From contig OW203723.1 of assembly GCA_934045075.1 (NCBI GenBank), positions 3,798,577-3,862,576 on the forward strand: 64,000 nt of DNA. The letters run 5' to 3'. The stretch's first letter is position 1. Every line of letters begins with the position of its first letter. A model generated the notes under the pieces. That model ran no database searches and was not told where the DNA came from. It saw only the letters and a program-made list of their open reading frames with translations. This document shows positions 13,255 through 40,964 of the stretch, piece by piece. Made by a program: the position numbers and the translations under genes. The DNA is from Yponomeuta sedellus. Its lineage: Eukaryota > Arthropoda > Insecta > Lepidoptera > Yponomeutidae.

Positions 13255-13284
13255 GTACGAACGAACGAACGAACGAACGAACGA

Positions 13285-15297: not shown

Positions 15298-16188
15298 GCC
15301 GACAACTTCAGGAGTCTTACTAAGCTCCTTACCCTCAATAAAATCCCCTACCACACCTATGCGCTTCCCGAGGAGCGCAAGGTGCGGGCTGTCCTTCGTG
15401 GCGTTCCGACGGAACTATCCAAGGACGCCATCAGGGATGACCTTATCTCCCAAGGTCATCCCGTCGAGGCTGTGTATCCCATGCACAGCAGCCGCGGGAA
15501 GTCCTTCCCCCTGGCCTTGGTGGTACTCACCAATTCCCCCCAAGCCCGCTCCATCTTCTCGGGAGTTCCCACAGTTTGTGGCCTCTCGAATATTAAAGTC
15601 GAGAAGCCCCATAGGCGGGGCCACCCCGGCCAATGCCACCGCTGCCAGCTTTATGGCCACGCGGCGGCAAACTGCTCCGCTCCTCCCAGATGCGTGAAGT
15701 GCCTAGAGCCTCACGCCACTGCGGAGTGCTTGCGCACTCGCGACTCGGAAGTTCCTCCGGCTTGCGTACTGTGCAATCAGTCCGGCCATACGGCCAATTA
15801 CCGGGGGTGCCCGCGTGCCCCCCGCCCCTCCGCCGCTAAGGCTCCCAAGGCCCCCTTCGCTCAGAGGAAATCAGTTCCCGCACTGAATACCCCTGCATTC
15901 CCACCCCTAGGCCGCCCCAGTGCCAAACCTAGCCCCCCACCGACCCCCGCATGGGGCCCCCGACCTAGTCCCCCCGCTACAGCCGAGCCCGTAGCGGCCA
16001 CTCAGGCAAATCCCCCCTCAGATAGGTCTCAGACAGCTGACGACCTTAGGCTGATCAGTGCTGCCATCAATAATATTGATCTGGCGGAGATCTCTAAACT
16101 GGCGGGCAAGCTGCGCGCCGCCACCTCCCCCGCTGAGCGTCTTATCGCTCTTGCCGAGCATAGCGATATGCTCTCTAGTCTCGTTTAA
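15298..16188 (+). pseudogene. Half-LINE X1 ORF1, C-terminal part (nucleic-acid-binding protein)
   Basis: The frame is open from the first base after the target repeat, starting ADNFRSLTKLLTLNKIPYHT, and ends TAA at 16188. It has no N-terminus or own start codon because the insertion is 5'-truncated. Three CCHC-type zinc knuckles are visible: CHRCQLYGHAAANC, CVKCLEPHATAEC and CVLCNQSGHTANYRGC. They are followed by a proline-rich stretch and a C-terminal helix ending MLSSLV. In jockey-clade elements this protein binds the element RNA. The part present is nearly the same as in copies B and C, with no internal stops. Confidence 0.85.
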
Positions 16189-23757: not shown

Positions 23758-26652
23758 CTATGAAAGAGCAGTGCCCCCCCTAGGGGGGACACTGGCAGAG
23801 GAGGGGGGCGCGTCTGACTGAGACCGAGCCTCTAAGAGGTGGTTCAGGTCGGACGACAATTTGTCGGGCGGGTCAACGAGTACGTTCCTGGGCCTGCGCA
23901 CCAGGTAACGTGGGTCCGTCGTGGGCGGAGAGTAAGCCGCTGCTTCGCGGATCAGGGGGTTGGGATGTTCTTCAGCAGTGCTGAAGAACGTCTCTGAGAG
24001 GGACCTAATAAATTGCTGCATGGTTGGGATTTCCATGTCCCGATGTAGGTCTGCGTTCCTGACGCACCAGTGAGCGTTCAGTGCCCTACGAATAAAAATG
24101 TTCTGTACCCTCTGCAGTCCGTACAGGGCTGAGGGGGACGCGTGAGCGAAGACGGGTGCCGCGTAAGTCATCACGGGACGAATGCAAACCTTATAGAGCG
24201 TTCGCTTGTTCCTAGCTGACATCCTACTGTGCCGGCCTATCATGGATGATAGGCGGCCTAGGTAAAATCGGGCTGTCCGGGTCACCTTCCGGATGTGTGG
24301 GACGAAAGTCAGGTTCCTATCTAAAATGACACCTAGGTACTTGGCGGATTTTTGCCAGGGGACTGGGGTCCCTAACATGCGAATGGGGGGGTCCTCGCCG
24401 AGAAACCGTCCACGCTTGTGTTCAAAACGCACAGCCGTGCTTTTCTCCGGGTTGACCTCGATGCGCCATAGTCTGAACCAGGCTCCTAGCTTATCGACCG
24501 CGGGTTGGAGTTTGCGGAGGATACACGACATCTGCCGACTCTTGCAGTAGAGTGCGGTGTCGTCGGCAAAAAGTGACAATTGGACCCCATCGCCGGGAAT
24601 GGGAATGTCATTTGTGTACGAAATGTACAGGAGGGGGGAGAGCACGGAGCCTTGCGGGACCCCGGCTCTGAGCGGACGGGGGGACGAGAGTACCCCCTCG
24701 TGTCTAAAACGGAAGGACCGATCCTTCAGAAAGCTATATATGACGCGGACAAGTCGGTCGGGGAGACCCAGTTCGTACAATTTGTACACGAGCCCTGCGT
24801 GCCAGACCTTGTCAAAGGCCTTGGCGACATCGAAGAAGACGGCTACCGTCTTTTCGCGCCTAGGGAAGAAACCACTCAAGATATACTCTACTATGCGGTG
24901 GACTTGTTGAGGGCAAGAGTGCCTAGCTCGAAAGCCAAATTGGTGATGGATGATGAGAGGGGGTCCCTCTGACGGGAAGAGGTGGTTTCTCATACGAGTG
25001 AGAATAACTCGTTCGAAGAGCTTGCCCATGGCCTTAAGAAGGCTGATGGGGCGGTGGCTAGATGGGACGTTGAGGGGCTTCCCGGGCTTGGGAATGCCTA
25101 TGACTGTCGCCTCTTTCCATGCGGATGGAAAGTGACAGAGGTCAAAGCAGGCATTGAAGAGAATGGCAAGGAGGGTGAGCACCTGGCCGGGGAAGTTTTT
25201 GAGCGCTAGGTTGGCAATACCGTCCGCTCCTGGGGCCTTTTTACGTTTCAGTCTTTTGATAAAAAGCTGAATTTCGTCAGTGGATACCGCGATAGGGTCG
25301 TCGGTTAAGGGGAGGGAGGTCTTTTTACGGACCTCCTCCTCAACCTTGCCTATGTGAACTGGGTCTCTATGCTGGACGCTGGGAGAGCATTGAGCCTCAA
25401 TGCTGTCAGCGAAGCATTCGGCCTTTTCGTCGTCCTCGAAGGCGGTAGTGCCATCGGGACGCATCAAGGGAGGGGTGTGGGTGATCGCGTCAACCCGAAG
25501 GGCCCTAGCTACTTTATAGTATGCTACGTGGGAGGGGGAAATGGTCTCCATGAGGTCACCCCAATTGGAGTTGCTCAGTTCGGAGAGCCGCGACCGGACT
25601 TGCCGTTGGAGGACGTTTGCACGTTTCCTGTAGGCAGGAGTTGGGTAGAGCGAGGCCCTTCGAAGGGCGGCTCTTTTGGCCCTTATCAGATTTCTGACGT
25701 CGAGAGGGAGCTTACGGTCATGGACCGGGACTTGGTGTTCGTTGTCACGGATGGCTGTTTGGATCACATGCGTGAGGGAGTCTACGGCGCTATCTATTTT
25801 ATCCGTGCTGTCAAGACAGCCGGGTGTGAGCACAAGCGGCGAATCGGGGGCTTCAGCAACGGTGACTAGGGAGGCTTTAACACCGTCCCAGTTAGTGATA
25901 GTCTTAACAGAGAGTGTGGAGTGAGTCGGGGGACCTAGCTGGAGCGAGACCGGTCGGTGGTCGGAACCTAGGTCGTCGAGAGGCTCGATCGACCTGAGGT
26001 TGAGGCTGACGCCCTTTAAAAGGGCGAAATCTAGCACGTCGGGGGAGTGCGCTGGGTTGTCAGGGTAGTGAGTTGGAGAAAACGGACATAGGACGTCTAA
26101 TTCCAACGATTCGGTTAGACCGAGAAGGGCAATGCCACCAGAGTTCGTCTGTAGGCAGGTCCAATCCGTGTGTTTCGAGTTGAAATCCCCGAACATCACG
26201 GTATGGGGGCCTAGAGCGAGGATGGCTTCGAAATCACTCCGTAAGGGTAGTGTTCCGCTGGGAATATAAATTGAAGCTACTACTAAGGACGGATGTCCCG
26301 TCATACCTAGTCTGCAGACAGTGGCTTCCATGTTGGAGAGAGCCGGAGTGGGGACATGGGAGCAGTGAAGGGAGCTCTTGTAATAAATGGCAGTGCCGCC
26401 GCCTTGACGGCCGTCGGCTCTGTCATTTCTTACGAGAGTAAACTTGGGAATCCTCAGTCCCCGAGTACGGGGCTTGAGCCAAGTTTCCTGCACGAGGAGC
26501 AGGTCCACTTCGTTGACTTTAACGAATTCCCTGAGTTCGTGTACATTGCTGCGGAGACCGCGAGCGTTGTACGAAATAAGCGAGACGCCCTTAGGCTTGA
26601 GTCGGCCCGTGCTGACGCGCGGGGGTGGGGGAGTGTCCTGAGGGACCGGCAT
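23758..26652 (-). CDS. LINE A ORF2: endonuclease and reverse transcriptase
   Basis: 964 residues, ATG at 26652, 27 bp after the ORF1 stop. It nicks target DNA and copies element RNA at the nick. The APE-type endonuclease is at about 22-240: SYNARGL with N29, QETW with E56, GDFNSK with D156/N158, PDVLDFAL, and GSDHRPV with D231/H232. The RT is at about 460-760: PKPGKPLNVPSSHRPISLL, FGFRARHS, FDVAKAFDKVWH, AGVPQGSVLSPLLY and the catalytic FADDTALY at 695-702. A C-terminal region with the KVCIRPVMTYAAPVFAHAS words follows. Motif wording and the zinc-knuckle ORF1 partner place it in the jockey clade. There are no stops or frameshifts. The last roughly 25 residues (LNHLLEARSQSD) are the piece retained by the half-LINEs. 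Confidence 0.93.
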   Translation of the reverse strand: MPVPQDTPPPPRVSTGRLKPKGVSLISYNARGLRSNVHELREFVKVNEVDLLLVQETWLKPRTRGLRIPKFTLVRNDRADGRQGGGTAIYYKSSLHCSHVPTPALSNMEATVCRLGMTGHPSLVVASIYIPSGTLPLRSDFEAILALGPHTVMFGDFNSKHTDWTCLQTNSGGIALLGLTESLELDVLCPFSPTHYPDNPAHSPDVLDFALLKGVSLNLRSIEPLDDLGSDHRPVSLQLGPPTHSTLSVKTITNWDGVKASLVTVAEAPDSPLVLTPGCLDSTDKIDSAVDSLTHVIQTAIRDNEHQVPVHDRKLPLDVRNLIRAKRAALRRASLYPTPAYRKRANVLQRQVRSRLSELSNSNWGDLMETISPSHVAYYKVARALRVDAITHTPPLMRPDGTTAFEDDEKAECFADSIEAQCSPSVQHRDPVHIGKVEEEVRKKTSLPLTDDPIAVSTDEIQLFIKRLKRKKAPGADGIANLALKNFPGQVLTLLAILFNACFDLCHFPSAWKEATVIGIPKPGKPLNVPSSHRPISLLKAMGKLFERVILTRMRNHLFPSEGPPLIIHHQFGFRARHSCPQQVHRIVEYILSGFFPRREKTVAVFFDVAKAFDKVWHAGLVYKLYELGLPDRLVRVIYSFLKDRSFRFRHEGVLSSPRPLRAGVPQGSVLSPLLYISYTNDIPIPGDGVQLSLFADDTALYCKSRQMSCILRKLQPAVDKLGAWFRLWRIEVNPEKSTAVRFEHKRGRFLGEDPPIRMLGTPVPWQKSAKYLGVILDRNLTFVPHIRKVTRTARFYLGRLSSMIGRHSRMSARNKRTLYKVCIRPVMTYAAPVFAHASPSALYGLQRVQNIFIRRALNAHWCVRNADLHRDMEIPTMQQFIRSLSETFFSTAEEHPNPLIREAAAYSPPTTDPRYLVRRPRNVLVDPPDKLSSDLNHLLEARSQSDAPPSSASVPPRGGTALS

Positions 26653-26679
26653 TAGTTAGTTTAGCTATAAACTAACTAA

Positions 26680-27099
26680 CTAAGCAAGACGAGAGAGCAT
26701 ATAACTATGCTCGGCAAGGGCGGCAAGACGCGCGCCGGGGGAGGTCGCGGTGCGCAGCTTGTGCGCCAATACGGAAATCTCCGCCAAATCAATATTTTGA
26801 ATGGCATCACTGATGACTCTGAGGTCGTCAGCTGTCTGAGACCTGATTGGGGCAGAGGGGGGACAAGCCTGAGTGGCCGCTACGGGCCTTGCTGCGGAGG
26901 GAGGAGGAATAGGGCGGGGGCCCCATGCTGGGGTTGGTGGAGGGGTGGGTTTCGCACTGGAGCGGCCCAGGGGCGGGAAGGCGGGAGTGTTCAGTGCCGG
27001 CACTGATTTCCTCTGGGAGAGGGGGGCCTTTGGGGCCTTGGGAGCCTTAGGGGCGGAGGGGCGGGGGGCACGCGGGCACCCCCGGTAATTGGCCGTATG
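26680..27099 (-). pseudogene. LINE A ORF1, C-terminal part beyond the Transib insertion
   Basis: Reads TANYRGCPRAPRPSAPKAPK and a proline/alanine-rich stretch to MLSRLA and a TAA stop at 26680. It is the continuation of 30038-31311 after a 2.9-kb Transib insertion. The join falls in the third zinc knuckle, between SGHT and ANYRGC. The reading frame is otherwise conserved with half-LINE ORF1s B and C, so disruption is due only to the insertion. Confidence 0.9.
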
Positions 27100-27145
27100 C
27101 ACGGTGGTACCGTAGTAGGTCATAGGACTCGGATGGCAATGACTG
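27100..27145 (+). repeat. Transib left terminal inverted repeat
   Basis: CACGGTG heptamer-like start at positions 1-7 of the element, GTACC at 8-12, GGTCATAGG at 19-27 (27118-27126), AATGACTG at 39-46 (27138-27145). The right end has the same blocks but GGTCATAGG begins at position 29. Confidence 0.85.
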
Positions 27146-27200
27146 AGCTAAGCCATGATATCTGGCTCAGTTACCCACTAATTGTCATACTACCTGAGGG

Positions 27201-27209
27201 TATAAAAGG
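27201..27209 (+). promoter_or_regulatory. Transib TATA box
   Basis: TATAAAAGG lies about 160 bp before the transposase start codon and about 100 bp inside the element. It is the only good TATA match in this leader. Confidence 0.6.
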
Positions 27210-27362
27210 TTTCGCAATCTATTGTTCCCAACATTCCTTTTTCGGCATCCGAAGTGAACACAAGTAATTAGTCATCAACCTGTTATCACCAAGTGCTTTA
27301 ATTAGCCCAAGACGCGACGCGTGTGTTTAAGTTCCAACTTGTCTATGACCTGCTATTTTACA

Positions 27363-29667
27363 ATGGAATTTGAAGTCACAGGTATGTATTATTAATTTAC
27401 TTTACTATTTTGCCTTTTCCTTCTACATTTTTTTTTTAAATAGAGTGCTACGCCAACGTGGCATTTTTTATGTATTTATGTCTGTATATTTTTTACGTTG
27501 AAGCTTTTACTTATGTTTGTACCTACTTGTACCATTCAATTTGGTATAGAAATATGGGTTACAATGTCTACTACTAGGCCTCTCCAAATTTAGCTGCGTC
27601 ATGCTGCGTCTGTAAGGTGCAGCCAGGTGCTACGCCGCGCGCCTGAACGCGTAGCAGGCGCGTAGCACTTGCTACGAAACATGTATCTATTTTGATCCGC
27701 TTTTAACGTATTTTTATTTTGTTTTAGGTACTAGTATTAAGTGTTCTTTCAAAAGAATGCTTGTACTAGATACTTGGCTGTCTATTAAAGACAGCAAATC
27801 TGAACTGGAGCGTTGGCATCGAGTTTTTCGAGACCTAATACAATTGCTGCCTGATGTTGAGAATTACATTGCTGATGACTTGGAAAAAAGAGTTACTAAA
27901 GTTTGTACAAGATTGGTAGCAATTTGGAAGCAAGTCACGCGCAACCATTCTCGCATGGTCTCTAAGTACGGAGACTGGCTGAACGAAATTGAAGTTTGCG
28001 TTCTGCCAACTTGTGCAACAGTAGGGAGCCACAACACCCAACGGCCAGCAGCAGAAGCTTCGACAAGCACCCAACAGCACCAGCACAGGAAGGACTTTGA
28101 GGAATGTAGCAAGAGATCAAAACGCCGCAGGCTTGCAGAGTTAAGTAAAGTAGACAGTTCTGCGATAAATTCTTTGTTGGACGATTCTAGTCTATCTAAC
28201 GCCGCTGCATCTTTAAATTTCAGCACTGACGAAGTCTTGTCTCTTATAAATGAGACAAAACTGACTAAACATCTTTTGGTGAAAGACTTCGTTAATGCAA
28301 AATCACCTAATGCATTACCATCTTATCAAAAAGTGTTAGAAGCTAAGAAGCGGTGCTATCCATCGCAAGAGTTTATCACGGAATCATCTGCTGAAGTAGA
28401 ATTACAATCATTGTTAGATCATACTGCTTGCCGGATACTAGAATCCCAAAAACCCGTTTTGAATAATATTGACCCTAATAAAGAATTTGTTTTGATTGGA
28501 AAATGGGGTTTCGATGGGAGTACGGGGCACAGCGAATATAAACAGATTTTTGGAGATTCTGGTATCGATGATGATGGCAGTATGTTTGTTACTTCATATT
28601 GTCCTCTTCAATTGGTTTGTAAGTCCAATACCTCCGACCCAGATCAAATAGTTTGGAAAAATCCGCGCCCTTCTTCCACCAGGTATTGTAGGCCTATTCG
28701 ATTCCAATTTGCCAAAGAATCCAAAGACCTTTCTGTGCAAGAAGAAGCTTATTTCAAGACTAAAATTGATAGTTTACAACCGACTTCTTTCACTCACGGT
28801 GAATATGAAATAAAAGTGCAGCATTCTTTACAATTAACCATGGTTGATGGTAAAGTGTGCAGTGCTCTGAGCGATACATCTTGTAGTAGATGTTATATTT
28901 GTGGTTCAACTCCAAAAGAGATGAATGACATTGATAAATCGCTGAGCAAAACTGCAGATAGTGGTACCTATCAATTTGGACTATCTCCTCTTCACTCGTA
29001 TATCCGATTCTTCGAATATTTAATTCACGTTTCTTATAGATTAGACATAAAGAAATGGCAGGTACGTTCTTCAGACGAAAAAGCTCTTCTTGCACAAAAA
29101 AAACAACATGTGCAGCAACAGTTTAGGCAGAAACTTGGTCTAATAGTCGACAAACCGCGAAGTGGAGGAAGTGGCACATCTAACGACGGAAACACTGCCA
29201 GAAAGTTTTTTTCTAACTCAGCGGTTTCAGCGGAAATTACTGGATTAGATAAAATCCTTATTGACAGATGTCATAATCTGCTGCAGTGTCTTTCGTCGGG
29301 ATACAAAATTAATAACGCCACTTTTAAAGAGTATTCTCTAGAAACAGCACGTAAACTTGTTGCTACCTATCCATGGTACAACTTGCCATCGTCTGTACAT
29401 AAGGTCCTCATTCATGGGTCGGAAGTAATTGAACACGCATTATTGTCAATAGGTGAGCTTTCGGAAGAGGCCGCCGAATCTTGCAATAAATTAATCAAAC
29501 TCTTCAGGCGTGACAACACGAGGAAAATGTCTCGGGTTGTCACAAACACCGACTTGATACATAGACTTCTCCTTAATTCGGATCCTTATATTTCTAGTTT
29601 AAGAAGGTTACCACAGAAGAAGAAGTCTATTCTATCAAAAGAAGTATTAAATTTGTTGTCGGTTTAG
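27363..29667 (+). CDS. Transib transposase (RAG1-like DDE recombinase), two exons
   Basis: Cuts the element at its CACxxTG ends and joins it to a 5-bp staggered target. Exon 1 is 27363-27381 (MEFEVT plus one base). The intron is 27382-27727, with GTATGT donor and a TTTTGTTTTAG acceptor. Exon 2 is 27728-29667. The join keeps frame and gives 652 residues. Visible family marks (numbered on the spliced protein): KWGFDGSTGHSEYKQ with candidate catalytic D269; MVDGKVCSALSDTSC with candidate D380, followed by the CYIC zinc pair as in the RAG1 zinc-binding region; VHKVLIHG histidines; and IGELSEEAAESCNK with candidate catalytic E586/E587, followed by TRKMSR and LLLNSDPYIS. Residues about 110-150 are a Q/R/K-rich linker with a likely nuclear signal. 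There are no stops. The catalytic assignments are from remembered family patterns, not an alignment. Confidence 0.88.
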
Positions 29668-29854
29668 GAAAAAATGTAAAAAATAAGATAGGTATTTATG
29701 TTATTTTTTACATAACTCCTATTATGTAAATATAATATTTTTTGTCCAATTGTGTGTTTGTACTTAGATGTTAGTTAAGTATTTACTTTATTTGTAATAT
29801 AAAATGTAAATAGTAAGGTTTAATAGTTATTAAGTTGCAAACCTTCTTTTAAGT

Positions 29855-29888
29855 GTAATAAAAATGCATAATTTTGTAAATAAAATAA
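29855..29888 (+). terminator. Transib poly-A signals
   Basis: AATAAA occurs twice (about 29858 and 29881), roughly 190-215 bp after the transposase stop. These are the likely mRNA 3'-end signals. Confidence 0.5.
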
Positions 29889-29979
29889 GCTTTTTAAGAT
29901 TATTTTGTTTTTTTTTTATTGTGTTATGGCTTAAAGTATTACAAAACACCATAATAATAATAATCAGCTATGACAACGA

Positions 29980-30037
29980 CAGTCATTATTATCGCGAAAC
30001 CCTATGACCGCTACTCTTAGGGCGTGGAACCAGTGTG
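29980..30037 (-). repeat. Transib right terminal inverted repeat
   Basis: Read inward from 30037: CACACTG at 1-7, GTTCC at 8-12, an extra block with ACGCCCTAAGA at 13-23, GGTCATAGG at 29-37 (30001-30009) and AATGACTG at 51-58 (29980-29987). Compared with the left end, the inner block is displaced by 10 bp. Confidence 0.85.
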
Positions 30038-31311
30038 GTATGGCCGGACTGGTTACACAGTACGCAAGCCGGAGGGACTTCCGAGTCGCGAGTGCGCAAG
30101 CACTCCCCGGTGGCGTGAGGCTCTAGGCACTTCACGCATCTGGGAGGAGCGGAGCAGTTTGCCGCCGCGTGGCCATAGAGCTGGCAGCGGTGGCATTGGC
30201 CGGGGTGGCCCCGCCTATGGGGCTTTTCGACTTTGATGTTCGAGAGCCCACAAACTGTGGGGACTCCCGAGAAGATGGAGCGGGCTTGGGGGGAATTGGT
30301 GAGTATCACCAAGACAAGGGGGAAGGACTTCCCGCGGCTGCTGTGCATGGGATGCACCGCCTCGACGGGATGACCTTGCGAGACAAGGTCGTCCTTGATG
30401 GCGTCCTTGGAAAGTTCCATGGGAACGCCTCGGAGCACGGCCCGCACCTTGCGCTCCTCGGGGAGCGCATACGTGTGATATGGGACCTTGTGAAGAGTGA
30501 GGAGCCTAGTCAGGCTCCTGAAGTGGTCAGTAGTCGCGGTCTCGATAACTATGTTATCGGCGTTGTTCCGCGCCCTGAGGTAGTGGACATTGTTGTCCTT
30601 ACACAACTGCCCGACTTTAGTCCATGCGGACTTGTCCCGTAGGTACACGGGAGGAGGGGATTTGGCCTTCGAAGGCTGGGGGGAGGACCGTGAGAACGGC
30701 TTCGGTGGGGCGGGAATGTCAATTGACATTAGCGGACGTATAGTATCCGTGGAGGAGGGGGGCGCGGAGACCGCGGGGGAGGGGGCGGCGGGAGCCGCGG
30801 GGGATGGGGTGGCGGGAGCCGCGGGGGTGGGGGGAGTCCTCTTCGAAGAGGCTAGCTTGCGCTGCCTCTTCTTCCTGGACGTGACGGTGGTGAAGTCACC
30901 GGTGACGGTGTTCACCTCCGAGGAGGAGGAGGGGGAGGAGCAGGAGCTCCCGGGCCGCTCGGAACGCGAGATGGATCGCTTCCTAGTGCGGGACGTGGCG
31001 GAGCCCGAGATGGACTCGGTATCCATCGGGGACGGGGAGGGGAGGATCACGGGAGAGGCCGGGATAACGGTGGGGGCAGGGGGGGACTCAGGAGAGTCAG
31101 AGATGGCAGCGGGGGCGGGGGAGTCGGGGGAGTCGGGGATAGCGCCCTGCACTTCATTGAAAAATGACTGTACTTCGTGATCAAGCGCCCGACTTGTCAC
31201 GAAGTTAAGGAGCAGAGAATAGCTCCATTTATTTGCCATAGTGGCGGACGGCTCCCCTGCCAGTGGCAGGGGAGCGGGAGATAACGTGAGTTTAGACGTA
31301 ATGCCTAGCAA
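30038..31311 (-). pseudogene. LINE A ORF1, N-terminal part (zinc-knuckle RNA-binding protein)
   Basis: Starts MLGITSKLTLSPAPLPLAGE at 31311 and reaches the third zinc knuckle (CVLCNQSGHT), where Transib interrupts it. The N-terminal 200 residues are low-complexity P/S/A with a serine-rich patch. A conserved region follows (YLRDKSAWTKVGQLCKDNNV; PYHTYALPEERKVRAVLRGV), then the knuckles CHRCQLYGHAAANC and CVKCLEPHATGEC. The protein would bind LINE RNA. It is clearly a different subfamily from ORF1 B and C at the N-terminus (MANKWSYSLLLNFVTSR against MEPQHSLSVYVDFMTSR), so LINE A is not the direct parent of those copies. Confidence 0.88.
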
Positions 31312-35392: not shown

Positions 35393-37799
35393 TTTTTTTT
35401 TTTTTTTTTTTTAACCCTATAAAGGGCACCCTCCGGAGGACACGGGGGAGGGAGGTGGTGAATGCTCATGCATAACAGCACGGACCCGGCCGTGCTGCCA
35501 ATGTGGGACTCACAAGAAGTGCGCCTACCCACTAAACACCACCTTGGGGCTAGTTTTGGTCCTAAGGACCCCTAAACCGACATCGGAGCGACCCCCTCGA
35601 GGCCGAGGACGGGTGCGCAGCGGAGCTCCCTAAATGAAGCGTCCGCTTAGAAGGTTAGCTACAGCTGCTAGGAGAGAATAGTGTCACCACAAGCGGGGAC
35701 ACTAGCGGGCGGGGGCTGTGTCTGCCTGGGACCGAGCCTCTAGTAGGTGGTCCAGTTCAGAACAGAGTTCATCGTGAGGGAGAATACAATAAAGAGAGGG
35801 ACCGGGGAGTACGAAATAGTTTAATTAAACGAGACTAGAGAGCATATCGCTATGCTCGGCAAGAGCGATAAGACGCTCAGCGGGGGAGGTGGCGGCGCGC
35901 AGCTTGCCCGCCAGTTTAGAGATCTCCGCCAGATCAATATTATTGATGGCAGCACTGATCAGCCTAAGGTCGTCAGCTGTCTGAGACCTATCTGAGGGGG
36001 GATTTGCCTGAGTGGCCGCTACGGGCTCGGCTGTAGCGGGGGGACTAGGTCGGGGGCCCCATGCGGGGGTCGGTGGGGGGCTAGGTTTGGCACTGGGGCG
36101 GCCTAGGGGTGGGAATGCAGGGGTATTCAGTGCGGGAACTGATTTCCTCTGAGCGAAGGGGGCCTTGGGAGCCTTAGCGGCGGAGGGGCGGGGGGCACGC
36201 GGGCACCCCCGGTAATTGGCCGTATGGCCGGACTGATTGCACAGTACGCAAGCCGGAGGAACTTCCGAGTCGCGAGTGCGCAAGCACTCCGCAGTGGCGT
36301 GAGGCTCTAGGCACTTCACGCATCTGGGAGGAGCGGAGCAGTTTGCCGCCGCGTGGCCATAAAGCTGGCAGCGGTGGCATTGGCCGGGGTGGCCCCGCCT
36401 ATGGGGCTTCTCGACTTTAATATTCGAGAGGCCACAAACTGTGGGAACTCCCGAGAAGATGGAGCGGGCTTGGGGGGAATTGGTGAGTACCACCAAGGCC
36501 AGGGGGAAGGACTTCCCGCGGCTGCTGTGCATGGGATACACAGCCTCGACGGGATGACCTTGGGAGATAAGGTCATCCCTGATGGCGTCCTTGGATAGTT
36601 CCGTCGGAACGCCACGAAGGACAGCCCGCACCTTGCGCTCCTCGGGAAGCGCATAGGTGTGGTAGGGGATTTTATTGAGGGTAAGGAGCTTAGTAAGACT
36701 CCTGAAGTTGTCGGTGGTGGCGGTCTCGATGACGATGCTATCGCCAACATTCCGGGCCTTGGTAGTATGGACATTATTGTCCTTACAAAGTTTGGAAAGA
36801 TTGGTCCATGCGGACTTGTCCCGTAGGTACACGGGAGGTGGGGACTTTGCCTTCGGAGGCTGGGGGGAAGACCGTGCGAACGATCCTGTCGGTACGGGGA
36901 CGTCGATATCCATGAGGGGGGGTATCGTAGCGGGGGAGGGGGGCGTGGAAGCCGCGGGGGAGGGGGGCGCGGGAGCTGCGGGGGAGGAGGGGGCGGCAGA
37001 GAAAGCCGCAAGGGAAGGGGGCGCGGAAGCCGCGGGAGAGGAAGGGGCGGAGGCCGCGGGGGAGGCTGAAACCTCAGAGGACGGGCAGGGAGTCCTTTTA
37101 GAAGTGGCAAGCTTACGCTGCCTCTTCTTGCGGCGAGAGACCGAAGTAAAAGCATCGGTGAGGGTGCTAGTCTCGGAGTAGGGAGAGCTCCCTGAGAGGT
37201 CGGACCGCGATTTAGAACGCTTCCGTGCGTGGGAGGCGGGGGAGTCCGAGACAGACTCGGTATCCATAAGGGAAGGGGCGTGGGTCTCGGGAGAGACCGG
37301 AATAATGACGGGGGCAGGGGGAGACTCAGGAGAGTCCGGGATCGCAACAGGGGCGGGGGACTCAGGGGAGTCCTTCGAGAAGTTTTCGATAAACAATTTA
37401 TAGTCGTCCCAAAGGCCACGACTTGTCATGAAATCGACGTACACCGAGAGGCTATGTTGGGGTTCCATAGTGGCAGACGGGGCTGCCGGTTCCCCTGCCA
37501 GTGGCAGGGGAGCGGGAGATAATGAAAGTTTAGACGTAATGCCTAGCAATTACGTGACAAGAAAATAGAAAAACAATAGAAGCAAAGCGGGGAGTAATAC
37601 CTAGTATAAACCTAGGCACTTACTTGACCAATCCGGCAGGACGGAGCACTCGAACTCTGAAAAAGATAGAGGTGTGTATTAGTATACAGTACGCAAAACT
37701 CGCCGGCAATGCACGGGCGCACTGTGCACGCGAGCGAGTGGCCGACAGCGGAGAGGGACGCGCGATGCGACCGCTCTCGACGCTGGTAAACGAACTGTC
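35393..37799 (-). mobile_element. Half-LINE B in LTR site 1
   Basis: 2.4 kb, minus strand, flanked by GCGCGCGCGGG (35382-35392 and 37800-37810). It has a poly-T (35393-35412), a 3' UTR shared with LINE A, a remnant of the ORF2 end, complete ORF1 and the 5' leader. All of ORF2 apart from its last roughly 25 codons is missing. Its site and orientation are the same as LINE A in the other LTR. Confidence 0.88.
35825..37549 (-). CDS. Half-LINE B ORF1 protein (CCHC zinc-knuckle)
   Basis: 574 residues, intact from MLGITSKLSLSPAPLPLAGE to MLSSLV. The N-terminus (MEPQHSLSVYVDFMTSR) precedes a long P/S/A-rich low-complexity region at about 40-235. A conserved globular part follows (YLRDKSAWTNLSKLCKDNNV; YHTYALPEERKVRAVLRGV) at about 240-385. 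Three knuckles lie at 391-449: CHRCQLYGHAAANC, CVKCLEPHATAEC, CVLCNQSGHTANYRGC. The last roughly 50 residues are a leucine/alanine helix. By family knowledge it binds retrotransposon RNA and telomere- or chromatin-bound particles in some relatives; the role here is inferred. It has no ORF2 partner of its own, yet its frame is preserved, which suggests recent trans-mobilisation. Compared with copy C it has 11 extra residues, all in the low-complexity region. Confidence 0.88.
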   Translation of the reverse strand: MLGITSKLSLSPAPLPLAGEPAAPSATMEPQHSLSVYVDFMTSRGLWDDYKLFIENFSKDSPESPAPVAIPDSPESPPAPVIIPVSPETHAPSLMDTESVSDSPASHARKRSKSRSDLSGSSPYSETSTLTDAFTSVSRRKKRQRKLATSKRTPCPSSEVSASPAASAPSSPAASAPPSLAAFSAAPSSPAAPAPPSPAASTPPSPATIPPLMDIDVPVPTGSFARSSPQPPKAKSPPPVYLRDKSAWTNLSKLCKDNNVHTTKARNVGDSIVIETATTDNFRSLTKLLTLNKIPYHTYALPEERKVRAVLRGVPTELSKDAIRDDLISQGHPVEAVYPMHSSRGKSFPLALVVLTNSPQARSIFSGVPTVCGLSNIKVEKPHRRGHPGQCHRCQLYGHAAANCSAPPRCVKCLEPHATAECLRTRDSEVPPACVLCNQSGHTANYRGCPRAPRPSAAKAPKAPFAQRKSVPALNTPAFPPLGRPSAKPSPPPTPAWGPRPSPPATAEPVAATQANPPSDRSQTADDLRLISAAINNIDLAEISKLAGKLRAATSPAERLIALAEHSDMLSSLV

Positions 37800-38583
37800 G
37801 CGCGCGCGGGCTGGCGCTTCGACTTTTATGCAAATCCCTTGAGTAAGTCTTCTACGTTTAAAATTTGCACGTAAATTAAAATTTAAGAACGTAGTTTGAT
37901 TAAGCGTGTTTTGTTTAGTATATTTGTAAAATTTGATGATGATCGGCCTACGTTTACTAGGAGAAAATCGATGTTAAAGTTTGTATGGAGAAACTTTAGA
38001 GGCTTATTTCAGCACTTTAATTTGGAAAATTTTACAAAAATGTACGTTGTTTACGTAAAGAATGTTAATATCTAGTGAATAAGCTAAAAATATCTGAAAA
38101 TTGTTACATTTTTCTACCAATTAAAGCTGTTCAAAGTTTGCAATGTTTAAAACCTAATATCTTCAAAGTTATAATTGGAAAATGCAAATAAATGGTTTTA
38201 TACTGAAGAGTTCATGAAAACAAACAAATGTAAATAGGTATAATGTTAATTTTTATGTATTTCATGGAAAAAAAAAAAAAAAAGTAGTGTTGAAAGTTCG
38301 TAGTACATTTTGCTCAATAACTCCCAAACTGTTAAAGTTAGCGTAATGAAACTTACACCATTGGAATTGTGAACAAATTTTCTTTCGAATTGCATACTTT
38401 TAATCAAAGAAATCTAAATGATGTAAATTCAAACTTTGTATTGAATAGTTAGAACGGTGCGGCAGCGCTATCTCGCTCTTGCGTTTTTGTGAGCCACACC
38501 TATTATGTTCATCTCGTTACAACAACACCAAGCTACGATTGTATTTTTCTGCATAAATTGAGCGCATTTTTTATTGTCAGTCA

Positions 38584-40964
38584 CACAGAGTTCGTTTACC
38601 AGCGTCGAGAGCGGTCGCATCGCGCGTCCCTCTCCGCTGTCGGCCACTCGCTCGCGTGCACAGTGCGCCCGTGCATTGCCGGCGAGTTTTGCGTACTGTA
38701 TTCTAATACACTCTTCTATCTTTTTCAGAGTGCGAGTGCTCCGTCCTGCCGGATTCGTCAAGTAAGTGCCTAGGTTTATACTAGGTATTACTCCCCGCTT
38801 TGCTTCTATCGTTTTTCTATTTTCTTGTCACGTAATTGCTAGGCATTACGTCTAAACTTTCTTTTTCTCCCGCTCCCCTGCCACTGGCAGGGGAACCGGC
38901 AGCCCCGTCTGCCACTATGGAACCCCAACATAGCCTCTCGGTGTACGTCGATTTCATGACAAGTCGTGGCCTTTGGGACGACTATAAATTGTTTCTCGAA
39001 AACTTCTCGAAGGACTCCCCTGAGTCCCCCGCCCCTGTTGCGATCCCGGACTCTCCTGAGTCTCCCCCTGCCCCCGTCATTATTCCGGTCTCTCCCGAGA
39101 CCCAAGCCCCTTCCCATATGGATACCGAGTCTGTCTCGGACTCCCACGCACGGAAGCGTTCTAAATCGCGGTCCGACCTCTCAGGGAGCTCTCCCTACTC
39201 CGAGACTAGCACCCTCACCGATGCTTTTACTTCGGTCTCTCGCCGCAAGAAGAGGCAGCGTAAGCTTGCCACTTCTAAAAGGACTCCCTGCCCGTCCTCT
39301 GAGATTTCAGCCTCCCCCGCGGCCTCCGCCCCTTCCTCTCCCGCGGCTTCCGCGCCCCCTTCCCTTGCGGCTTTCTCTGCCGCCCCCTCCTCCCCCGCGG
39401 CTCCCGCGCCCCCCTCCCCCGCTACGATACCCCCCCTCATGGATATCGACGTCCCCGTACCGACAGGATCGTTCGCACGGTCTTCCCCCCAGCCTCCGAA
39501 GGCAAAGTCCCCACCTCCCGTGTACCTACGGGACAAGTCCGCATGGACCAATCTTTCCAAACTTTGTAAGGACAATAATGTCCATACTACCAAGGCCCGG
39601 AATGTTGGCGATAGCATCGTCATCGAGACCGCCACCACCGACAACTTCAGGAGTCTTACTAAGCTCCTTACCCTCAATAAAATCCCCTACCACACCTATG
39701 CGCTTCCCGAGGAGCGCAAGGTGCGGGCTGTCCTTCGTGGCGTTCCGACGGAACTATCCAAGGACGCCATCAGGGATGACCTTATCTCCCAAGGTCATCC
39801 CGTCGAGGCTGTGTATCCCATGCACAGCAGCCGCGGGAAGTCCTTCCCCCTGGCCTTGGTGGTACTCACCAATTCCCCCCAAGCCCGCTCCATCTTCTCG
39901 GGAGTTCCCACAGTTTGTGGCCTCTCGAATATTAAAGTCGAGAAGCCCCATAGGCGGGGCCACCCCGGCCAATGCCACCGCTGCCAGCTTTATGGCCACG
40001 CGGCGGCAAACTGCTCCGCTCCTCCCAGATGCGTGAAGTGCCTAGAGCCTCACGCCACTGTGGAGTGCTTGCGCACTCGCGACTCGGAAGTTCCTCCGGC
40101 TTGCGTACTGTGCAATCAGTCCGGCCATACGGCCAATTACCGGGGGTGCCCGCGTGCCCCCCGCCCCTCCGCCGCTAAGGCTCCCAAGGCCCCCTTCGCT
40201 CAGAGGAAATCAGTTCCCGCACTGAATACCCCTGCATTCCCACCCCTAGGCCGCCCCAGTGCCAAACCTAGCCCCCCACCGACCCCCGCATGGGGCCCCC
40301 GACCTAGTCCCCCCGCTACAGCCGAGCCCGTAGCGGCCACTCAGGCAAATCCCCCCTCAGATAGGTCTCAGACAGCTGACGACCTTAGGCTGATCAGTGC
40401 TGCCATCAATAATATTGATCTGGCGGAGATCTCTAAACTGGCGGGCAAGCTGCGCGCCGCCACCTCCCCCGCTGAGCGTCTTATCGCTCTTGCCGAGCAT
40501 AGCGATATGCTCTCTAGTCTCGTTTAATTTTAATTAAACTATTTCGTACTCCCCGGTCCCTCTCTTTATTGTATTCTCCCTCACGATGAACTCTGTTCTG
40601 AACTGGACCACCTACTAGAGGCTCGGTCCCAGGCAGACACAGCCCCCGCCAGCTAGTCTCCCCGCTTGTGGTGACACTATTCTCTCCTAGCAGCTGTAGC
40701 TAACCTTCTAAGCGGACGCTTCATTTAGGGAGCTCCGCTGCGCACCCGTCCTCGGCCTCGAGGGGGTCGCTCCGATGTCGGTTTAGGGGTCCTTAGGACC
40801 AAAACTAGCCCCAAGGTGGTGTTTAGTGGGTAGGCGCACTTCTTGTGAGTCCCACATTGGCAGCACGGCCGGGTCCGTGCTGTTATGCATGAGCATTCAC
40901 CACCTCCCTCCCCCGTGTCCTCCGGAGGGTGCCCTTTATAGGGTTAAAAAAAAAAAAAAAAAAA
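38584..40964 (+). mobile_element. Half-LINE C in LTR site 2
   Basis: 2.38 kb, plus strand, flanked by ATTGTCAGTCA (38573-38583 and 40965-40975), with a poly-A at 40946-40964. The organisation is 5' leader, ORF1, ORF2-end remnant, 3' UTR. The position is the same as X1 in the other LTR, but small differences (for example GCCAGCTAGTCTCC against GCCCGCTAGTGTCC) show that X1 is closer to B than to C in the 3' part. Confidence 0.88.
38836..40527 (+). CDS. Half-LINE C ORF1 protein (CCHC zinc-knuckle)
   Basis: 563 residues, complete and without stops, starting MLGITSKLSFSPAPLPLAGE 252 bp after the element 5' end. Domain order equals copy B: low-complexity P/S/A region, conserved globular region, knuckles at about 380-438, C-terminal helix ending MLSSLV. 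Substitutions are few (for example ECLRT preceded by HATV instead of HATA), and two short in-frame deletions in the proline-rich part explain the shorter length. The ORF2 remnant after the stop codon reads SELDHLLEARSQAD before meeting a stop. Long open frames overlapping in the other frames (up to 367 codons) are by-products of the GC-rich proline repeats. Confidence 0.88.
   Translation: MLGITSKLSFSPAPLPLAGEPAAPSATMEPQHSLSVYVDFMTSRGLWDDYKLFLENFSKDSPESPAPVAIPDSPESPPAPVIIPVSPETQAPSHMDTESVSDSHARKRSKSRSDLSGSSPYSETSTLTDAFTSVSRRKKRQRKLATSKRTPCPSSEISASPAASAPSSPAASAPPSLAAFSAAPSSPAAPAPPSPATIPPLMDIDVPVPTGSFARSSPQPPKAKSPPPVYLRDKSAWTNLSKLCKDNNVHTTKARNVGDSIVIETATTDNFRSLTKLLTLNKIPYHTYALPEERKVRAVLRGVPTELSKDAIRDDLISQGHPVEAVYPMHSSRGKSFPLALVVLTNSPQARSIFSGVPTVCGLSNIKVEKPHRRGHPGQCHRCQLYGHAAANCSAPPRCVKCLEPHATVECLRTRDSEVPPACVLCNQSGHTANYRGCPRAPRPSAAKAPKAPFAQRKSVPALNTPAFPPLGRPSAKPSPPPTPAWGPRPSPPATAEPVAATQANPPSDRSQTADDLRLISAAINNIDLAEISKLAGKLRAATSPAERLIALAEHSDMLSSLV

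Follow-up and report, generated by a model that had tools for sequence, protein, structure and literature searches.

The 64,000-nucleotide stretch of the Yponomeuta sedellus genome analyzed here (contig OW203723.1; the window) contains a complete Transib insertion at positions 27100-30037 (2938 bp), bounded on each side by the target-site duplication GTATG. The insertion interrupts ORF1 (open reading frame 1) of a minus-strand retrotransposon lacking long terminal repeats (non-LTR), a class that was named by reading the ORFs of the retrotransposon rather than by family search. The predicted empty site, in which the flanks are joined at a single GTATG, is found uninterrupted at three other places in the window, all in retrotransposon copies. 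Because these three copies lack the element and carry a single GTATG, both Transib boundaries are fixed to the base, and the element coordinates proposed in an earlier reading of the letters without database searches (the sequence-only reading) proved exact. The element has a transposase related to the RAG1 core and to HzTransib, terminal inverted repeats that start with CAC, and 5-bp target-site duplications; based on these features, its identification as a Transib in that reading is borne out.

The two ends of the element are unequal. The left end starts with CACGGTGGTACC and the right end, read inward, with CACACTGGTTCC; 9 of these 12 terminal bases are identical, but an ungapped comparison of the first 30 bp gives identity at only 11 of 30 positions. 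As the sequence-only reading had described, the terminal heptamers are CACGGTG on the left and CACACTG on the right, and our recount agreed with its placement of the shared inner block GGTCATAGG at end positions 19 (left) and 29 (right), i.e., with spacers of 11 and 21 bp, and with the 12-bp displacement that it gave for a further shared block; this block, AATGACTG, lies at 39 and 51. Thus, the right-end blocks sit deeper than the left-end blocks, by 10 bp for GGTCATAGG and 12 bp for AATGACTG. If the octamer GTCATAGG is used as the inner block instead of the 9-mer, the spacers are 12 and 22 bp.

Altogether, five inverted blocks of 8-9 bp are common to the terminal 120 bp of both ends, with offsets of +10, +12, −21, +55, and −72, while no block of this length is shared between them in direct orientation. 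Three of the five are out of order (TTGTCATA, at 83 on the left and 62 on the right; TAAGCCAT, at 50 and 105; and GGTTTCGC, at 109 and 37), which the sequence-only reading had missed, and the core GTCATA points inward twice per end (L20 and L85; R30 and R64). Because three blocks are scrambled and GTCATA is doubled at each end, the ends are better described as carrying several short shared motifs than as a clean heptamer-spacer-nonamer signal. All chance tests on the shared blocks were post hoc. A lone shared 9-mer is not rare: its frequency is 1.5% for Markov pairs, 1.3% for pairs drawn at random from the window, and 1.9% for inverted pairs from the element interior. A shared 9-mer with an 8-mer behind it in the same order is notable, with frequencies of 5e-5 among Markov pairs, 2.2e-4 among element-interior pairs, and 1e-3 among random window pairs; repeats inflate the last figure. 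The five inverted blocks are likewise notable against a Markov mean of 0.18 (P = 1e-4) and an interior-control mean of 0.30, with 0 of 27,020 interior pairs reaching five.

We searched the source genome (657.5 Mb in 57 contigs) for other copies of the element. Whole-element copies were taken as the best 40 of 336 first-look candidates, all scored at a 99-100% match and all read; because they are the best-scoring candidates, the 40 are biased toward the youngest copies. Both unequal ends were intact in 38 of them, the left end being damaged in L054 and L059, so the 10-bp offset, the persistence of which in other copies had been proposed as a check, is kept. Exact 5-bp duplications of 29 different kinds flank 33 of the 40 copies; among these 33, the first base of the duplication is C in 28 and the fifth is G in 26. 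Across the aligned span, 29 copies, including L054 with its truncated end, are identical to the 2944-bp consensus, and the 40 copies together differ from it by 10 substitutions. Family members have therefore inserted at many different sites while carrying one common pair of unequal ends. The offset belongs to the family as a whole, and transposition through such ends has taken place repeatedly and very recently.

A separate search with the left 120 bp, in which 40 of 322 candidates were scored, returned 40 identical left-end places on contigs C1-C4. Nineteen of these lay outside the full-length list, and 1.2 kb of each was read; 16 follow the consensus through that stretch. Among the others, L065 (711 bp) is internally deleted, with consensus 1-319 fused to 2556-2944; it retains both unequal ends, is flanked by an ATGCG duplication, and is possibly the start of a non-autonomous family. 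L072 carries an internal deletion, and L080 ends at position 133. In a protein search, 68 of 952 first-look candidates were scored, and all 68 have an intact transposase frame of 670-672 codons without stops, so the family has at least this many such places. Relative to its sister copies, the window copy has one private substitution (27345) and a private 6-bp in-frame deletion (28273-28274), differences also overlooked in the sequence-only reading, and a GTCATA-type site at 27343 is likewise private to it. In two copies with intact ends, extra bases lie at the left junction between the presumed duplication and the terminal CAC (CGT after ACACG in L039; T after ACCCA in L053), possibly donor flank brought along by imprecise cutting or the result of later mutation. 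The features of the element and its host are listed in Table 1.

Table 1. Features of the Transib insertion and its host retrotransposon (window coordinates)
Feature	Position	Strand	Basis or remark
Host non-LTR retrotransposon, split by the Transib	23758..31311	-	ORF2 at 23758-26652; ORF1 pieces flank the Transib
Left target-site duplication GTATG	27095..27099	.	Sequence and uninterrupted retrotransposon copies
Left terminal heptamer CACGGTG, then GTACC	27100..27106	+	Same in 38/40 copies with both ends intact
Left spacer, 12 bp to GTCATAGG (11 bp to GGTCATAGG)	27107..27118	+	Sequence
Shared inner block GGTCATAGG, left copy, end position 19	27118..27126	+	
Shared block AATGACTG, left copy, end position 39	27138..27145	+	
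TATA-box-like TATAAAAG, left subterminal, proposed promoter	27201..27208	+	Predicted from sequence
Proposed first coding exon (MEFEVTG...)	27363..27381	+	GT..AG boundaries and frame; splicing predicted
Proposed intron, 346 bp, GTATGT..TTTTAG	27382..27727	+	Predicted
Transposase exon 2, RAG1/Transib DDE enzyme: N-terminal helical domain, degenerate nonamer-binding-like segment, catalytic core	27728..29667	+	
Private 6-bp in-frame deletion, removes Q-Y of TKHQYLLV	28273..28274	+	Comparison with sister copies
Shared block AATGACTG, right copy, end position 51	29980..29987	-	
Shared inner block GGTCATAGG, right copy, end position 29	30001..30009	-	
Right spacer, 22 bp to GTCATAGG (21 bp to GGTCATAGG)	30009..30030	-	Sequence
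Right terminal heptamer CACACTG, then GTTCC	30031..30037	-	Sequence
Right target-site duplication GTATG	30038..30042	.	Sequence and uninterrupted retrotransposon copies

The consensus transposase is intact and comprises 654 aa. It contains the catalytic D-D-E triad (D262, D373, and E583) as well as the zinc residues C388, C391, H557, and H562, and in a fold alignment it is ~17% identical to RAG1. In the same type of alignment, the solved HzTransib chain begins at residue 161 of the window transposase, which is thus ~160 residues longer N-terminally than that solved chain; residues 1-94, beyond the HzTransib alignment, are modeled as a well-predicted N-terminal domain. The Q-Y lost from the window copy are residues common to its relatives, and this copy may be a poor source of enzyme; intact sister copies exist. 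We found no RAG2-like gene in the element, in which the transposase is the only frame of at least 300 aa, although no RAG2 profile search was made.

The inner blocks GTCATAGGA and GTCATAGGG are unlike the nonamer of recombination signal sequences (RSSs), ACAAAAACC (consensus quoted in PMC8289069). The transposase also differs in the GRP(R) hook of the RAG1-type nonamer-binding domain. GRP is present at this place in 38 of 46 aligned proteins, and the window transposase is among the 8 without it; in this protein and its two closest listed relatives (rows P0001-P0003), GRP is replaced by HQHRK, HQYRK, or HQHRK, while five further rows lack an exact GRP in other ways. The relative from Eumeta japonica (P0026) also has HQHRK. 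Around residues 116-157, a stretch of ~30 residues found in more distant relatives is absent alongside this replacement. Because of these two differences, this clade has a shortened nonamer-binding-like part, and, judged by the HQHRK in place of GRP, a RAG1-like minor-groove hook is unlikely in the window transposase. The inner block is not A-rich, in keeping with a missing hook, and our guess would be that GRP loss and the change of inner block occurred together.

HzTransib from Helicoverpa zea shares with the window element a RAG1-type DDE transposase, CAC-starting ends, 5-bp duplications, and a single gene (5-bp target-site duplication and terminal inverted repeats in PMC1852546), but PMC8289069 describes its ends as symmetric. 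Unequal ends in Transibs were known before, being reported in PMC8355894 and PMC9435367. Following Kapitonov and Jurka 2005, PMC8355894 lists as 12/23 asymmetric Transib5 of Drosophila melanogaster and Transib2/N1/N2/N3 of Anopheles gambiae; symmetric Transibs are given spacers of 20-22 bp. Like the window element, the asymmetric Transibs have CAC heptamers with one short (12) and one long (~23) spacer, and the window spacers counted to GTCATAGG (12 and 22) lie within 12 and 23 ± 1 bp, while those counted to the 9-mer (11 and 21) do not; what sets them apart, by their descriptions, is an RSS-like nonamer where the window element has GTCATAGG. PMC9435367 reports asymmetric ends for every Subgroup I Transib and for some of Subgroup II, with a GRP-bearing nonamer-binding domain in both subgroups, where the window element has HQHRK. 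V(D)J signals with RAG1/2 and ProtoRAG with its 27/31 spacers likewise combine a heptamer-spacer-block layout, two spacer lengths, and a RAG1 core fold, but the window element is without an RSS-like nonamer, and no RAG2-like gene was found in it. In the open-licence papers searched, without a search by sequence, the family was not found in print. Its large number of young, intact copies is less usual for a Transib; PMC4411706 puts the typical copy number of autonomous Transibs at one or, at most, a few.

Based on these data, we consider it likely that the window element is a copy of a very young Transib family, the 654-aa transposase of which bridges or tolerates both spacings of its unequal ends. 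The transposase core would bind the terminal CAC heptamers and its N-terminal DNA-binding parts the inner GTCATA-type sites; cleavage would proceed by nick and flank hairpin, as for HzTransib, and the element would be pasted into C-R-N-Y-G-like targets. Lying about one helical turn deeper, the right inner site would stay on the same face of the helix, and the transposase could bridge both spacings by a flexible N-terminal arm or merely tolerate the difference. Any movement of the window copy, which is two conserved residues short, would probably depend on enzyme from its sister copies. Three points weigh against this interpretation. By script, no exact 5-bp duplication flanks 7 of the 40 copies, of which 2 have a damaged left end and 5 have intact ends (L027 and L044, with 4 bp in common, and L039, L053, and L063). 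All copies stem from a single young burst, so that in evolutionary terms they amount to one case; being near-identical products of that burst, they are not independent evidence for a selected spacing. Finally, older or differently ended copies may have been missed since only the best 40 of 336 candidates were read. Ends with 12/22 spacing work in nature; that the inequality is necessary does not follow.

How the inequality arose and what it does can be explained in several ways. The sequence-only reading had named a deletion in the left repeat as the main alternative to its own proposal. As a defect of the window copy alone, such a shortening would match the private substitution and the private deletion in its gene, but it has practically no chance of being correct because 38 of 40 copies carry the same unequal ends, and all 40 scored left-end places agree. 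As an ancestral event it still fits: the founder would have lost ~10 bp on the left, or gained them on the right, and the change would have been tolerated since recognition by the core centers on the terminal heptamer region. We give this explanation not quite even odds, the highest among the alternatives. The right spacer (21-22 bp) matches the 20-22 bp of symmetric Transibs (PMC8355894), and a shortened left end therefore fits equally well; invertebrate RAG-like enzymes are argued to depend mainly on the terminal 15-17 bp (PMC7204232); the identity between the ends is concentrated in the outermost 12 bases; and the second block is shifted by 12 rather than 10 bp. The size of the offset, close to a helical turn, and the survival of the blocks as exact 8-9-mers, which suggests that they may be bound, speak against it, neither strongly. 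Somewhat less probable, with perhaps one chance in three, is that the transposase binds several short, loosely arranged motifs at each end, with no single spacer being important. The five inverted blocks with their widely varying offsets and the doubled GTCATA would be expected from such ends; on the other side, these putative binding motifs were picked after being seen, and the GTCATA-type site at 27343 occurs only in the window copy.

Of the 12/23-like pairing proposed in the sequence-only reading, the difference of roughly one helical turn between the ends is borne out; the pairing rule itself finds less support, given the non-RSS inner block and the missing GRP hook. In its strict form, the transposase would join only a short-spacer with a long-spacer end, as RAG does. 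The GTCATAGG spacers within the range of asymmetric Transibs (PMC8355894), the offset near one helical turn, the survival of a short and a long end together in 38 of 40 copies, and the better performance of amphioxus ProtoRAG with its unequal end pair (PMC8289069) are consistent with this. Nevertheless, we regard it as unlikely. Since a left end goes with a right end in any ordinary transposon copy, the copies cannot test a pairing rule. Moreover, the inner block is unlike the RSS nonamer, the GRP hook is absent, and the other blocks are scrambled, and RAG1 alone does not favor 12/23 over 12/12 pairs, the rule being tied to RAG2 (PMC8355894), while only one gene was found in the element. We similarly doubt that a mobile stand-alone Transib without RAG2 or a GRP hook reads GTCATAGG at 12/22 bp with a preference for a short plus a long end.

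Work on the origin of V(D)J recombination has yet to settle whether unequal ends served any function before RAG2 (PMC8355894, PMC8289069). A family with at least 68 intact-frame places and ends proven by recent insertions contrasts with the few-copy norm (PMC4411706), and it can therefore serve as an apparently active Transib with unequal ends for testing spacer length, block, and pairing. If pairing does not matter, the 12/23 rule would be placed after Transib; if a short plus a long end is preferred, a stand-alone transposon would have a natural 12/23-like rule.

Elsewhere in the window, a head-to-head pair of retrotransposon copies forms an inverted repeat at 36500-39852 with 98-99% identity, another retrotransposon copy lies at 15387-16163, and two ACGA arrays with equal statistics are located at 13257 and 34124. 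Together, these repeats suggest a larger duplication in the window.
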